Shown here: one piece after another, positions 2,163-36,060 of the stretch
Position numbering within the stretch: position 1 is the stretch's first letter
Layout of the letters: every line of letters begins with the position of its first letter
Origin: Planctomycetaceae bacterium
GTDB lineage: Bacteria; Planctomycetota; Phycisphaerae; Phycisphaerales; SM1A02
Direction of reading: 5' to 3'
Assembly (NCBI GenBank): GCA_021297795.1
Contig: JAJTGL010000002.1
Span: 1-64,000, forward strand
DNA: 64,000 nucleotides
Translations under genes and position numbers: made by a program
Notes under the pieces: generated by a model
What the model was told of the DNA's origin: nothing
The model's database searches: none
Seen by the model: only the letters and a program-made list of their open reading frames with translations

Positions 2163-3833
2163 TCAGGGGTTCGCCGGCGGAGGCACGGAGGTTGGTACGT
2201 TCACGGCCTCGACGGGCGCGGCGCCCGCCTTCGCGGCGCGCGCGGCGAGCGTCCGGTCGCCGATCCAGCGGGTCGCGGCGTCGAGCGCCGCATCGCTGCC
2301 GGCGAGCAGCGCCTCGCGCGAGGGGAGCGCGACCTCGTCGGGGATCACGCCGCGGCCCTCGAGCCGCGTGCCCTTGCCGGTCACGAAGTCGGCGACGGCG
2401 TGCATGAGCACGTCGCCGTTCGGCAGCTCGATCGCGTGGGCAGGCAGCGCCATGCCCGCGCTCGTCTCGCCGAAGACGCGGGCGCGGCCGATGTCCTGGA
2501 GGCCGCCCGCGAACACCTCGCTCGTACTCGCGGAGCGCGCGTCGACGAGGATCGCGAGCGGACGCGCGTACGGCCGCACGCGCTTGCCTGCGGTCGACAC
2601 CTTGCGCGGCATCGCGTTGAACTGGAGCGTGTTGTCGCGACCGATCATCGACCCGAGGCTCGCCGGCTCGGAGAGGAAGTGACCGGCGACGCCAGTCGAC
2701 ATCACGCCGACACCGCCCGGATTGCCACGGAGATCGATCACGATGCCGTCGCACGAGCGGAACTCGTCGACCGCCTTGTCGATCGCGGGCGAAGCGCCCG
2801 TGAACCAGATGTTGAAGGAGATGACGCCGATGCGGATCGGCTTGCCGTCGGTCGGAAGTTCGACGACCCGCGATTCGACCTCGACCGGCATCGGGGGCAG
2901 GTTGCCGAACTCCTGCGCTCCGTAGGGCGCGGGAACGAACGCAACCTCGATCGTGCGCTCGCCGTCGGGCGTGCCGAACGTCACTGGAATCGTCGCGCCG
3001 GCGGGGGCGCTGAGCGCCGAGGCTGCGATCGCGAGTTCGGTGCGAAGTTGTCGTGCGTGCGGCGACGAGGGCGACTGCTGCTCCTCACGCGCGAGCGCCT
3101 CGCGAAGCGGCTGCAGCTGATCCGCGACGCGCATCGATCCGACGGCGACGACGGTCCAGCCTGGCTGGATACCCGTGGTTGCGCCAGGAAGGCCCTCATG
3201 GACGCGGAGGACCGTTGGTTCGCCATCGACCATCGTGATGTCGATGCCGCAGACGCCCGGGCCTGAGCCGCCGGCCGGCGCGCTCGTCACCTTAACGCCG
3301 TCGGCGCCGGTGGTCGCGATGTCGCTGGCGGTGGCCGCCGATGCCTCGGGCGCGCGCACCTGCTCGCGCGGCGAGTCGATCGTCGGCGATTGCTCGGCGA
3401 GATCGCCCGGGATGATCGTGAAGTGGCTCTGACCGAGCCGCCCGAGCATCTCGAGGAGGATCGCGCGCAGTTCGTCCTGCGTCTCGACCGAGACGGCCTT
3501 CCCCCGGAGTTCCTCTCGCACGGCGACCCAGTCGACGCCGTTCAGCGTCTTGTCGAAATGACTGTCGCGGACCGTGGTCCAGACGGTGTCGAAGGTCTCG
3601 ACGGGTCGGATCGCGCGTGCGGACGGGGTCTTGGACGCGTTGGACTCGGCCGTCGCATCGGCGCCAGACGGCGTGGCGGTCGACCGCGACGTCGTGGCGG
3701 CGGTCGTGGTGGACGTCGTGCTGGACGTCGTACTGGACGTCGTGGCGCACGCGGCGAGCGTCGCACACGCGGCGAGGAGACCAGCGATGCGGAGTACGAG
3801 CGGGCCGGTCGAACGGTCGGCGTGGAAAATCAT
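2163..3833 (-). CDS. S41 family peptidase (C-terminal processing protease-like), probable lipoprotein
   Basis: GIVIDLRGNPGG...LVDARSASTSEVFAGGLQDIGRARVFGETSAG motif of tail-specific proteases; lipobox-like LAACATTSSTTSS; likely start MIFHADRS rather than the longer ORF. Confidence 0.85.
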   Translation of the reverse strand: MIFHADRSTGPLVLRIAGLLAACATLAACATTSSTTSSTTSTTTAATTSRSTATPSGADATAESNASKTPSARAIRPVETFDTVWTTVRDSHFDKTLNGVDWVAVREELRGKAVSVETQDELRAILLEMLGRLGQSHFTIIPGDLAEQSPTIDSPREQVRAPEASAATASDIATTGADGVKVTSAPAGGSGPGVCGIDITMVDGEPTVLRVHEGLPGATTGIQPGWTVVAVGSMRVADQLQPLREALAREEQQSPSSPHARQLRTELAIAASALSAPAGATIPVTFGTPDGERTIEVAFVPAPYGAQEFGNLPPMPVEVESRVVELPTDGKPIRIGVISFNIWFTGASPAIDKAVDEFRSCDGIVIDLRGNPGGVGVMSTGVAGHFLSEPASLGSMIGRDNTLQFNAMPRKVSTAGKRVRPYARPLAILVDARSASTSEVFAGGLQDIGRARVFGETSAGMALPAHAIELPNGDVLMHAVADFVTGKGTRLEGRGVIPDEVALPSREALLAGSDAALDAATRWIGDRTLAARAAKAGAAPVEAVNVPTSVPPPANP

Positions 3834-4047
3834 GGGATTCAAGAGCTGAGGGTGCTGACGGGTCGGGATCGGGCCGTCCCGGCCGCCGGTGCGCGCATCC
3901 AATCCGGTGGGCCACCGACCGGAGTCGGATGGTAAACGAGGGGGCGTTCGACGCGCATGGAGCCCCGCGCATTCCGTCGCCGTGAGGAATCCTCTTTCGA
4001 ATGCTGTCGGTGTTGCCTGAAAGCCACCATCGCCGCTCGACCCGTCT

Positions 4048-4081
4048 CCTTCATCCGTTCATCCGGATGAATGGTTGAAGG
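4048..4081. promoter_or_regulatory. 34-bp near-perfect palindrome upstream of metH (candidate operator)
   Basis: CCTTCATCCGTTCATCCGGATGAATGGTTGAAGG, perfectly centred at 4064.5 with two mismatched pairs; contains TTCATCC-g-TTCATCC-GGATGAA-t-GGTTGAA; ends 30 bp before metH ATG. Confidence 0.6.
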
Positions 4082-4111
4082 CTTGGGTCCGGCCCCGTAT
4101 CCTCCCCCCCG

Positions 4112-7100
4112 ATGCATCGCTCGCTCCTGAAGGCACTTGAGTCCGGAACCCTCGTCTTCGACGGGGGCATGGGTACCCAGATCCACGCGTGCGCGGATTG
4201 CCGCCCGAGCGACTACCTCGGTCGCGACAACTGCACCGACATCCTGGTGAAGTCGCGGCCCGACATCATCCAGCGGATCCACGAGAACTACTTTGCGGCC
4301 GGCGCGGACGTCGTCGAGACCGACAGCTTCGGCGCGAACATCCTCGTCGGCCGCGAGTTCGACGAGGAGCTCGCGTCGTGGACCTTCGAACTCAACAAGC
4401 GCGCGGCTGAGGTTGCACGCGCGGCGGCCGCGAAGTTCGAGACGGCCGATCGGCCGCGCTTCGCGATCGGTTCAATGGGACCGGGCACGAAGCTCGTCTC
4501 GCTCGGGCAGACGACCTGGGAGGAGATGCACGCGAGCTACTTCGAGCAAGCACGCGGCCTGATCGCGGGCGGCATCGATGGCTTCATGATCGAGACGTCG
4601 CAGGATCTCCTCCAGCAGAAGATCGCGATCAACGCGTGCATCGACGCGCTGCGCGAGGCGGGCCTCACGCCCGACGACCGCGCGATCTTCTCGAGCGTGA
4701 CGATCGAGACGACGGGCACGATGCTGCTCGGCTCCGACATCGCGGCGGTCGTGAATGCGCTCAAGCCGTTCCCGATCGCGTCGCTCGGCCTCAACTGCGC
4801 GACGGGCCCCGTCGAGATGGCCGAGCACGTGGCGTACATCTCGAGGAACTGGGACCGCGCGATCAGCGTGCTGCCGAACGCGGGTCTCCCGATCCTCGTC
4901 GACGGGCGCACCGAGTATCCGCTTGGTGCGCGGCCATTCCGCGACGCGATGCAGCGTTTCCTCGAGGAATACAGGGTGAATTCGGTCGGCGGCTGCTGCG
5001 GCACCACGCCCGACCACATCCGCGAGCTGCGTGCGCTCGTCGACGAGCTCGGCCTCGCGCGCAGGAAGCCCGCGCGCGCGATCGCGCCGCAGGCGCCCGG
5101 CTGCTCGAGCCTCTACGGATTCGTCGAGTTCGCGCAGGAGAACTCGTTCCTCATCGTCGCAGAGCGGACGAACGCCAACGGCTCGCGCAAGTTCAAGCGC
5201 CTGCTCGATGAAAGCGACTTCGACGGCCTCGTCTCGATGGCGCGCGAGGAGATCAAGGACGGCGGGCAGGTGCTCGACGTGTGCGTCGACTTCGTCGGCC
5301 GCAACGGCCCGAAGGACATGGCCGAGGTCGCGTCGCGCTACGTGCGTCAGGTGAACGCGCCGATCATGTTCGACTCGACCGATCCCGCGGTGATCGAGGA
5401 GGGCCTCAAGCGCCACGGCGGCAAGGCGGTCGTCAACTCGATCAACCTCGAGGATGGCGAGGAGCGCCTGAACAGGATCTGCCCGCTGCTGAAGAAGTAC
5501 GGCGCCGCGTGCGTTGCGCTCACGATCGACGAGGACCAGCAGGCGGGCATGGCGAAGACCGCAGCGCGCAAGCTCGAGATCGCCGCGCGCATCCACGATC
5601 TCTACACGCGGAAGTGGGGGCTGCCCGAGGAGGACATCCTCTTCGACCCGCTCACCTTCACGATCGCGACCGGCAACGACGACGACCGTCGCCTGGGCCT
5701 CGAGACGCTCGACGGCATCGCCGCGATCTCGAGGCGCTTCCCGAAGTGCGGCATCATCCTCGGCCTCTCGAACATCTCGTTCGGCCTGAAGCCCTCGGCG
5801 CGCGCGGTGCTCAACAGCGTGTTCCTCCAGCACGCCCGCGAGCGCGGCCTCACGGCGGCGATCGTGCACGCGTCGAAGATCATGCCGCGCAATCGCATCG
5901 CGCCCGAGCACTGGGAGGCCGCGGAGTGGCTCATCTTCGACAAGCGCGGCGCCGAGCGACCTGCGGGCAAGCCGGAGAACTTCGATCCGCTGCTCCATTT
6001 CATTTCACTCTTCCCGGACGGTATGGAGGAGACGGTCGCGAAGAAGTCGCTCGCCGATCTTCCGATCGAGGAGCGGCTCGCGCGGCACATCATCGACGGC
6101 GAGGACCGCGATCTCGACAAGAGCCTCGCCGAGGCGATGACGAAGTATCCGCCGCTCGCGATCATCAACGACCACCTCCTCGGCGGCATGAAGACGGTGG
6201 GCGAGCTCTTTGGCTCGGGCCAGATGCAGCTTCCGTTCGTGCTCCAGTCGGCGGCGGTGATGAAGAAGGCCGTCGCGATCCTCGAGCCGCACATGCCGAA
6301 GGCGGACGCCGACGCCGGCAAGAAGGCGAAGATCGTGCTCGCGACCGTCGCGGGCGACGTGCACGACATCGGCAAGAACCTCGTCGACATCATCCTCTCG
6401 AACAACGGCTTCGAGATCCACAACATCGGCATCAAGCAGCCGCTGCAGGCGATCCTCGACGCATGGCGCCGGACCGGCGCCGATGCGATCGGCATGAGCG
6501 GACTGCTCGTGAAGTCGGTCGCGATCATGGAGGAGAACCTTCACGAGATGAACCGACTCGGCGTGAACGTACCCGTCATCCTCGGCGGCGCCGCGCTCAC
6601 GCGGCACTACTGCGAAAGTCACCTGCGCTCGATCTACAAGGGTCCGCTCTACTACGGGCGCGATGCGTTCGAAGGGCTTGCGGTCTGCGACGCGCTCGCC
6701 TCGAAGTCGCTTGCGACGATCGACGCCGAGATCGACGCGCGCCTCGCGAAGCGCGAGGAGGTCGACTCGAAGGTCGCCCGCGCGCGCGCTGCCGAGCCGC
6801 GTGTCGAGGTCGCGGCGCGCAGCGCGGTGTCGACGACGGTTCCCGTGCCGAAGGCGCCGTTCCTCGGCGACCGGCTCGTCGAGGACATCCCGCTCGAGCA
6901 GGTCTATCCCTACATCAACCTCGTCGCGCTCTTCCGCGGGCAGTGGGGCTTCAAGAAGGGCGACATGAGCGAGGCGGAGTACGAGCGCTTCATCGAGGAG
7001 AAGGCGCGTCCGGTGTTCGACCGGCTCTGCCGTCAGTGCAAGGAGGAGAAGATCCTCCGTCCGCAGGTCGTCTACGGCTACTACCCGGTCGCGAGCGAGG

Positions 7101-7663
7101 GCGATGACCTCGTCGTCTTCGATCCGAAGGATCAGGACCGCGAGATCGAGCGCTTCCGATTCCCGCGGCAACTTGGCCGCGAGAGGCTCTGCATCAGCGA
7201 TTTCTTCCGGCCGCGCGCGTCGGGCGAGAAGGACGTGCTCGGCCTCCAGTGCGTGACCGTCGGCACCGAGGCGAGCCACCGCGCGAAGCAGCTCTTCGAG
7301 CGGAACGACTACACCGAGTACCTCTACCTGCACGGCTTCGGCGTCGAGTGCGCCGAGGCGCTCGCCGAGATGTGGCACAAGCGCATGCGCGCGGAGCTCG
7401 GCTTCGGTCACGAGGACAGCCCCGAGATCCGCAAGCTCTTCACGCAGAACTACCGCGGTTCGCGCTTCAGCTTCGGCTATCCGGCGTGCCCGGACATGAG
7501 CGACCAGGAGAAGCTCTTCCGCCTGATCCGTCCCGAGCGCATCGGCTGCGTCCTCACCGAGAACTGGCAGATCGTGCCCGAGCAGTCGACGAGCGCGATC
7601 GTCGTCCATCATCCCGAGGCGAAGTACTTCGCGGTCGAGAGCGCGGCGCGCGTGCAGGGTTGA
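4112..7663 (+). CDS. metH: Cobalamin-dependent methionine synthase
   Basis: 1183 aa; homocysteine-binding (DGGMGTQ, GGCCGTTPDHI), pterin-binding, cobalamin-binding (DVHDIGKN) and activation domains (YGYYP, GYPACPDMSDQ) all recognisable. Confidence 0.97.
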   Translation: MHRSLLKALESGTLVFDGGMGTQIHACADCRPSDYLGRDNCTDILVKSRPDIIQRIHENYFAAGADVVETDSFGANILVGREFDEELASWTFELNKRAAEVARAAAAKFETADRPRFAIGSMGPGTKLVSLGQTTWEEMHASYFEQARGLIAGGIDGFMIETSQDLLQQKIAINACIDALREAGLTPDDRAIFSSVTIETTGTMLLGSDIAAVVNALKPFPIASLGLNCATGPVEMAEHVAYISRNWDRAISVLPNAGLPILVDGRTEYPLGARPFRDAMQRFLEEYRVNSVGGCCGTTPDHIRELRALVDELGLARRKPARAIAPQAPGCSSLYGFVEFAQENSFLIVAERTNANGSRKFKRLLDESDFDGLVSMAREEIKDGGQVLDVCVDFVGRNGPKDMAEVASRYVRQVNAPIMFDSTDPAVIEEGLKRHGGKAVVNSINLEDGEERLNRICPLLKKYGAACVALTIDEDQQAGMAKTAARKLEIAARIHDLYTRKWGLPEEDILFDPLTFTIATGNDDDRRLGLETLDGIAAISRRFPKCGIILGLSNISFGLKPSARAVLNSVFLQHARERGLTAAIVHASKIMPRNRIAPEHWEAAEWLIFDKRGAERPAGKPENFDPLLHFISLFPDGMEETVAKKSLADLPIEERLARHIIDGEDRDLDKSLAEAMTKYPPLAIINDHLLGGMKTVGELFGSGQMQLPFVLQSAAVMKKAVAILEPHMPKADADAGKKAKIVLATVAGDVHDIGKNLVDIILSNNGFEIHNIGIKQPLQAILDAWRRTGADAIGMSGLLVKSVAIMEENLHEMNRLGVNVPVILGGAALTRHYCESHLRSIYKGPLYYGRDAFEGLAVCDALASKSLATIDAEIDARLAKREEVDSKVARARAAEPRVEVAARSAVSTTVPVPKAPFLGDRLVEDIPLEQVYPYINLVALFRGQWGFKKGDMSEAEYERFIEEKARPVFDRLCRQCKEEKILRPQVVYGYYPVASEGDDLVVFDPKDQDREIERFRFPRQLGRERLCISDFFRPRASGEKDVLGLQCVTVGTEASHRAKQLFERNDYTEYLYLHGFGVECAEALAEMWHKRMRAELGFGHEDSPEIRKLFTQNYRGSRFSFGYPACPDMSDQEKLFRLIRPERIGCVLTENWQIVPEQSTSAIVVHHPEAKYFAVESAARVQG

Positions 7664-31359: not shown

Positions 31360-31423
31360 CGTTCTCGCCGTCGGGCGATCCGTCATGGGTCGCCATCGAT
31401 GCTCTCTGCCCAAGGGTGTCGGT

Positions 31424-31451
31424 CGCGGGGATGCATGCATGCATCCCCGCG
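31424..31451. promoter_or_regulatory. Perfect 28-bp palindrome CGCGGGGATGCATGCATGCATCCCCGCG
   Basis: Self-complementary over all 28 positions; 76 bp upstream of ATG 31528. Confidence 0.6.
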
Positions 31452-31527
31452 CCGGGCTCGTCGCGCAGAGCGATGCGGCGTACGAGTTCGTCCCGATCGC
31501 AACAAAGACCGAAACGAGAAAGATCAC

Positions 31528-36022: not shown

Positions 36023-36060
36023 ACGACGCCTCGTCCCGCGGCAGCGAGACGAGGCGTCGT
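36023..36060. terminator. Strong hairpin between convergent genes (terminator-like)
   Basis: ACGACGCCTCGTC ... GACGAGGCGTCGT, 13-bp perfect stem, 12-nt loop, weak U-tract. Confidence 0.6.

Follow-up and report, generated by a model that had tools for sequence, protein, structure and literature searches.

A predicted SahR-type operator overlapping the putative metH promoter in a planctomycete

The stretch of DNA analysed here (64,000 nucleotides of a planctomycete contig, hereafter the window) carries a long palindrome directly upstream of metH. The questions raised by this locus are whether the palindrome is more than a chance symmetry, and which regulator, if any, would bind it. The following features define the locus:

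4048..4081, no strand assigned: whole palindrome CCTTCATCCGTTCATCCGGATGAATGGTTGAAGG, read from the window sequence, with four half-sites and outer CC/GG
4112..7663, plus strand: metH, cobalamin-dependent methionine synthase of 1183 aa (TIGR02082, 1221.7 bits)
2163..3902, minus strand: S41-family peptidase gene, the divergent left neighbour of metH, presumably no part of the regulatory system

Opposed positions of 4048-4081 were complementary in 15 of the 17 pairs, the two mismatched pairs being T/T and G/T, and 30 bases separated the palindrome from the metH ATG at 4112. Both results agree with the sequence-only reading, which had described a symmetric stretch with only two mismatched pairs ending 30 bp before the start codon. 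The half-sites follow each other in the order TTCATCCG-TTCATCC-GGATGAA-TGGTTGAA. Symmetry of this degree is uncommon, yet the window has further cases: three GC-rich 34-mers, at 992-1025, 31421-31454 and 36025-36058, had 15 or 16 complementary pairs out of 17, and none of them showed a relation to the metH site. The recurrence of the sequence of the metH palindrome goes far beyond chance. Exact copies were searched for in the genome of the window and in its relatives with the following segment:

4058..4071, no strand assigned: shared 14-bp core TTCATCCGGATGAA, the overlap of sites A and B described below

The genome to which the window belongs (3.2 Mb in 147 contigs, 83% complete) included two copies of TTCATCCGGATGAA, against 0.002 expected from base composition, and two of the 22-mer TTCATCCGTTCATCCGGATGAA, against 3e-8 expected in the same way. 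The 22 bp at 4050-4071 were identical at the second copy, which is located upstream of ahcY on contig C50, and exact core copies were found only at metH and ahcY. Weaker matches with one to three mismatches were also found, and the neighbourhoods were read for those with one mismatch only; two of these were near unrelated genes and one inside an ORF, and they were therefore taken as chance matches.

In 61 related genomes the core was present in 43 exact copies, all directly upstream of metH (23), ahcY (15) or the gene of an ArsR-methyltransferase fusion protein (sahR; five), while the reversed control pattern had no copies in the same genomes. When upstream regions were scored with the 30-bp motif at a threshold of 20/30 or more, the motif was found upstream of metH in 56 of 58 genomes, drawn from the genus, the family and the order, whereas none of the 20 metF and metK upstream regions (19 and one, respectively) reached this score. 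Because neither the 13 metF genes of the genus nor metK of the window's genome had a site, control appears to be restricted there to the metH and ahcY steps. A search of 84,980 named genomes with ATCCRTTCATCCGGATGAA produced 112 stretches, mostly in records named Phycisphaerae, Phycisphaerales or Planctomycetota. Of these, 41 were at metH, 24 at ahcY and 14 at sahR; the remainder included eight before metF (seven by TIGR00676 and one read by eye), one before a partial metE and one before metK.

The earlier expectation that the motif would recur near methionine genes held for nearly all metH orthologues of the order and also for ahcY and sahR. The part concerning metF, metK and metE held for other planctomycetes, but not for metF of the genus or metK of the window's genome. 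The check for a motif missing from metH orthologues and from methionine genes gave the opposite result and spoke for the sequence-only interpretation. The palindrome is genuine, is conserved, and belongs specifically to methionine-cycle genes.

Five near-perfect palindrome copies of 24-30 bp (L138:68, L154:2107, L168:2865, L204:4130 and L235:2997) had no recognised methionine gene nearby. At least four of them come from a single MAG, Planctomycetales bacterium HKST-UBA45, in which the fusion protein is encoded as well; the five either belong to a wider regulon or are copies of a repeated hairpin. One further site (L219:1179) stood before a succinate-semialdehyde-dehydrogenase-like gene, a possible additional target, in a genome that has sahR and ahcY at a distance of a few kb.

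The four half-sites in tandem and inverted arrangement, proposed from the sequence alone for two cooperating dimers, are present, and their register can be refined by comparison with SahR. The published site of SahR is a palindrome of 20 bp, and SahR and SamR have the common consensus ATC-10 nt-GAT. Two such sites can be placed on the palindrome:

4051..4070, no strand assigned: SahR-type site A, TCATC-CGTTCATCCG-GATGA, a perfect ATC(4053-4055)-N10-GAT(4066-4068) by the published consensus
4059..4078, no strand assigned: SahR-type site B, 8 bp downstream of A, ATC(4061-4063)-N10-GTT(4074-4076)

Site B is degenerate in its gene-proximal arm, and ATC-N10-GAT is perfect also at the ahcY site of the same genome. 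Among 20 planctomycetes outside the order, ATC-N10-GAT was present within 110 bp upstream of sahR in 18, the rate in shuffled sequences being 1.5%. A scan of spacings 2-20 in the same 20 regions gave a clear peak at N10 (18 regions), followed by N2 (8) and N18 (6); the two lesser values are echoes of N10 and show an 8-bp module. The 14-bp inner palindrome (ATC-N2-GAT) was disfavoured as a dimer site, as the scan outside the order prefers the N10 register. The half-sites are read best as two overlapping predicted SahR-type 20-bp palindromes of the form ATC-N10-GAT, with an offset of 8 bp; that these would bind two dimers cooperatively is more speculative.

The palindrome also overlaps a predicted promoter, located with the TTGA/TAnnnT pattern found in relatives:

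4075..4080, plus strand: predicted -35 box TTGAAG, inside the fourth half-site
4098..4103, plus strand: predicted -10 box TATCCT, after a 17-bp spacer

The fourth half-site at metH reads GGTTGAA. In most of the relatives with TTGA in this half-site at metH, TAnnnT was found 17 bp downstream, and the 17-bp spacing was present in 31 of the 51 aligned metH sites. Genomes with symmetric ATGA or ATAT at the fourth half-site were without that -10 position, and several of them had TATACT/TATAAT-like letters at the half-site edge. The departure of this half-site from symmetry is explicable by its doubling as a -35 box, and one arm of site B thus appears to be adapted to that role. At ahcY, the predicted promoter consists of a TTGCC box and, after 17 bp, TATTCT, which overlaps the outer (first) half-site; the degenerate letters of that half-site (TTCTCCC) can be attributed to this overlap. 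Since the operator overlaps the predicted promoter at both genes, either geometry would fit a repressor acting by occlusion of RNA polymerase. That half-sites are interlocked with -35 and -10 boxes also suggests that promoters of this group are sigma-70-like.

Only 8 nt separate the predicted -10 box from the ATG of metH in the window. At metH loci of the same genus about 6-9 nt lie between the end of the predicted -10 box and the ATG, and no Shine-Dalgarno sequence was seen there. Judging from these distances, the metH mRNA is probably leaderless, or nearly so, in the window and throughout the genus.

The sequence-only reading had suggested a regulator of the SahR/ArsR type. The genome of the window included four ArsR-family matches, of which the best was indeed encoded near ahcY:

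Contig C50:18374-19315, same strand as ahcY: P0002, an ArsR-HTH/SAM-methyltransferase fusion protein of 313 aa with GTG start

The gene of P0002 lies ~1.2 kb upstream of ahcY (P0001; TIGR00936, 606.6 bits), separated from it by the operator and by a short ORF in divergent orientation. Residues 16-60 of the protein match the ArsR HTH (PF01022, E 9.8e-14; NF033788 also above its cut-off) and residues 157-249 a class I SAM-dependent methyltransferase domain (PF08241, E 4e-21) with the conserved DLGCGTG motif. The full-length fusion protein was present in most of the 61 relatives. In 40 of the 51 genomes having both genes, sahR and ahcY were on one contig and strand, 0.06-5.3 kb apart, and where the fusion gene leads the operon, sites stand before the fusion gene itself.

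Fusion architecture, ahcY linkage, target set and ATC-10 nt-GAT geometry all match SahR and so place the candidate among the relatives of a known kind. SahR is described in PMC4239095 (citing Novichkov et al. 2014) as an SAH-responsive ArsR-family regulator of alpha-, delta- and some gamma-Proteobacteria. The earlier proposal of an uncharacterised planctomycete methionine regulator is accordingly supported as regards the regulator, but the kind is not new. A literature search brought up no publication about a methionine regulator in planctomycetes, and its matches for SahR in Planctomycetes look like author-name noise. Taken together, the genomic comparisons make it highly probable that the region 4048-4081 is a metH operator-promoter bound by P0002 as a SahR-type repressor with an ArsR domain and a SAM-methyltransferase-like domain.

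By this mechanism P0002 would bind TTCATC-N10-GATGAA as a dimer and block RNA polymerase, a block suggested by the -35 box within a half-site at metH and the -10 box at another half-site at ahcY. When SAH rises, it would bind P0002 and the repressor would leave the DNA, as judged from proteobacterial SahR. Release would, by the same analogy, switch on ahcY, for the removal of SAH, together with metH, for the conversion of homocysteine to methionine. SAH would then be cleared and homocysteine remethylated, and methionine recycling would in this way be tied to the level of S-adenosylhomocysteine.

The ligand leaves some room for another reading, in which the regulator senses SAM or methionine with a corepressor logic like that of SamR. 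The methyltransferase-like domain with its DLGCGTG motif could take SAM as well as SAH, and metH is linked also to SamR. However, ahcY is a main target here while the SamR regulon excludes SAM-cycle genes other than metK, and metK of the window's genome has no site, so that sensing of SAM or methionine seems unlikely.

That the operator belongs to the methionine genes, but is bound by another ArsR-family or an unrelated protein, would be compatible with the three further ArsR-family matches in the genome. It could also be read from four relatives, 80-88% complete, that carried the motif without a detected full-length fusion protein: the incomplete G006 and G010 of the same genus, with the motif at metH, and G018 and G023 (both 88% complete), with the motif at ahcY. 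Against this, the fusion gene is linked to ahcY throughout the order, has sites before itself when leading its operon, and co-occurs with the motif across the phylum and in other phyla. In a phylum sample of 294 genomes, 119 had the fusion protein and 31 had the motif; the motif was found in 30 of the 119 genomes with the protein and in one of the 175 without it (Fisher 3e-12). Both were lost together in G033 (98% complete), which lacked the full-length fusion protein and, at metH as well as ahcY, the motif. Outside the phylum, the operator was found before sahR or ahcY in MAGs with the following names:

L183: Gemmatimonadetes
L207: Acidobacteria
L145: Myxococcales
L181: Deltaproteobacteria

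The fusion protein was present, at 46% identity, where genomes of Acidobacteria, Gemmatimonadetes, Myxococcales and 'Deltaproteobacteria' had the motif in front of ahcY or sahR. In genomes of Altiarchaeota, Lachnospiraceae, Gottesmanbacteria, Campylobacterales, Butyrivibrio and Desulfobacterales the motif was inside an ORF and the fusion protein absent. With this pattern of shared presence and loss, a repressor other than the fusion protein is very improbable. The equal operator letters across phyla, with the fusion protein alongside, suggest horizontal spread of the regulator together with its sites.

A self-complementary stretch before a methionine gene recalls the SAM and SAH riboswitches, and for this reason the metH leader was considered as the place of an RNA element acting in cis or of a hairpin of the terminator type. 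The Rfam search of the leader found no riboswitch, its sole match being a sub-threshold snoRNA, and the terminator search detected no terminator-like site at the palindrome, which also has no loop; the riboswitch and terminator readings were rejected on these results, in line with the earlier statements that the site is no terminator and that no riboswitch could be recognised. In addition, the palindrome at ahcY is placed differently relative to the promoter. At metH, the predicted -10 box downstream means that the palindrome would not be transcribed, and a transcript predicted to start at the ATG or close to it, 8 nt from that box, leaves no room for leader RNA. An RNA element can hardly be upheld. 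Just as implausible is a site for a MetR (LysR)-type activator, with its ATGAA/TTCAT half-sites and control of met genes in Proteobacteria (consensus ATGAA-N5-TTCAT), and it was rejected because the half-sites here have the reverse orientation (TTCAT...ATGAA); the site moreover extends over the core promoter, as would be fitting for a repressor.

If P0002 is such a SahR-type repressor, the planctomycete order would gain a complete SAM-cycle regulon with regulator, operator, targets and promoter geometry, and SahR-type control would extend well beyond Proteobacteria. The specificity of the operator, with all exact cores in the 61 genomes at three gene types, makes it usable for annotating methionine-cycle genes. 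A bolder and rather doubtful proposal is that of a distinct SahR subfamily in the planctomycete order and in scattered Acidobacteria, Gemmatimonadetes, Myxococcales and 'Deltaproteobacteria'. Its members would have modular 8-bp half-sites (spacings 2, 10 and 18) bound by two cooperative dimers, with a half-site overwritten by the -35 or -10 box and competition with polymerase. If this were true, repressor and polymerase competing for the same bases would give a steep response to SAH.

Among known systems, SAM/SAH riboswitches and MetR control the same methionine genes in other bacteria. The locus differs from the former in that no Rfam riboswitch family was matched in the metH leader, and from the latter in the opposite orientation of the half-sites. 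SamR of Xanthomonadales is SahR-like and linked to metH, with a 24-bp palindrome including ATC-10 nt-GAT, and SAM-cycle genes such as ahcY are not among its targets. The planctomycete system shares with it the ATC-10 nt-GAT geometry and the metH link, but has ahcY as a principal target, in the window's genome as well as in the order.

The likeness to SahR is more extensive. P0002 has the ArsR HTH and a C-terminal SAM-dependent methyltransferase-like domain as annotated for DVU0606 of Desulfovibrio vulgaris (ArsR family/UbiE methyltransferase), which has the same architecture and which we take to be the SahR of that species. The site is a palindrome of ~20 bp with ATC-10 nt-GAT, perfect here at metH and ahcY, and the regulator gene is linked to SAM-cycle genes, as seen in the pairing of sahR with ahcY. 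The targets in the order are metH, ahcY and sahR, with metF, metE and metK in other genomes; the core targets of the published SahR regulon are sahR, ahcY, metH, metF and metK, metE being rarer.

Fusion homologues in other bacteria were found beside metF in Sinorhizobium meliloti, beside metF and metH in Novosphingobium, and beside ahcY and metH in Leptospira interrogans. The homologues of Leptospira, Rhizobiales and Sphingomonadales resemble P0002 as fusion proteins beside methionine-cycle genes with a palindrome upstream, and the planctomycete operator shares its 8-bp modular build with the Leptospira site GATATCAAGATATCTTGATATC. Those of Leptospira, Rhizobium and Novosphingobium differ in having only ~30-36% protein identity to P0002 and other half-site letters. 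On chromosome II of Leptospira interrogans, a perfect 24-bp palindrome, GGATATCAAGATATCTTGATATCC (L128:5918-5941), stands directly before the sahR-ahcY-metH cluster and is likely to be a SahR operator in spirochaetes.

The differences from SahR concern distribution and operator. The planctomycete system is found in an order of Planctomycetota and some other phyla, not in Proteobacteria only, and its half-site is TTCATCCG instead of the ATATCAA-like or ACATAAA-like half-sites of SahR. The operator is usually doubled (30 bp, two 20-bp palindromes with an 8-bp offset) and interlocked with a -35 or -10 box. Within this genus, metH and ahcY were the only genes at which the regulon was seen, whereas the published core includes metF and metK. 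On these comparisons, the system is best regarded as a predicted regulon of the SahR type, in a phylum new for it and with an extended operator of its own that recurs across the planctomycete order.
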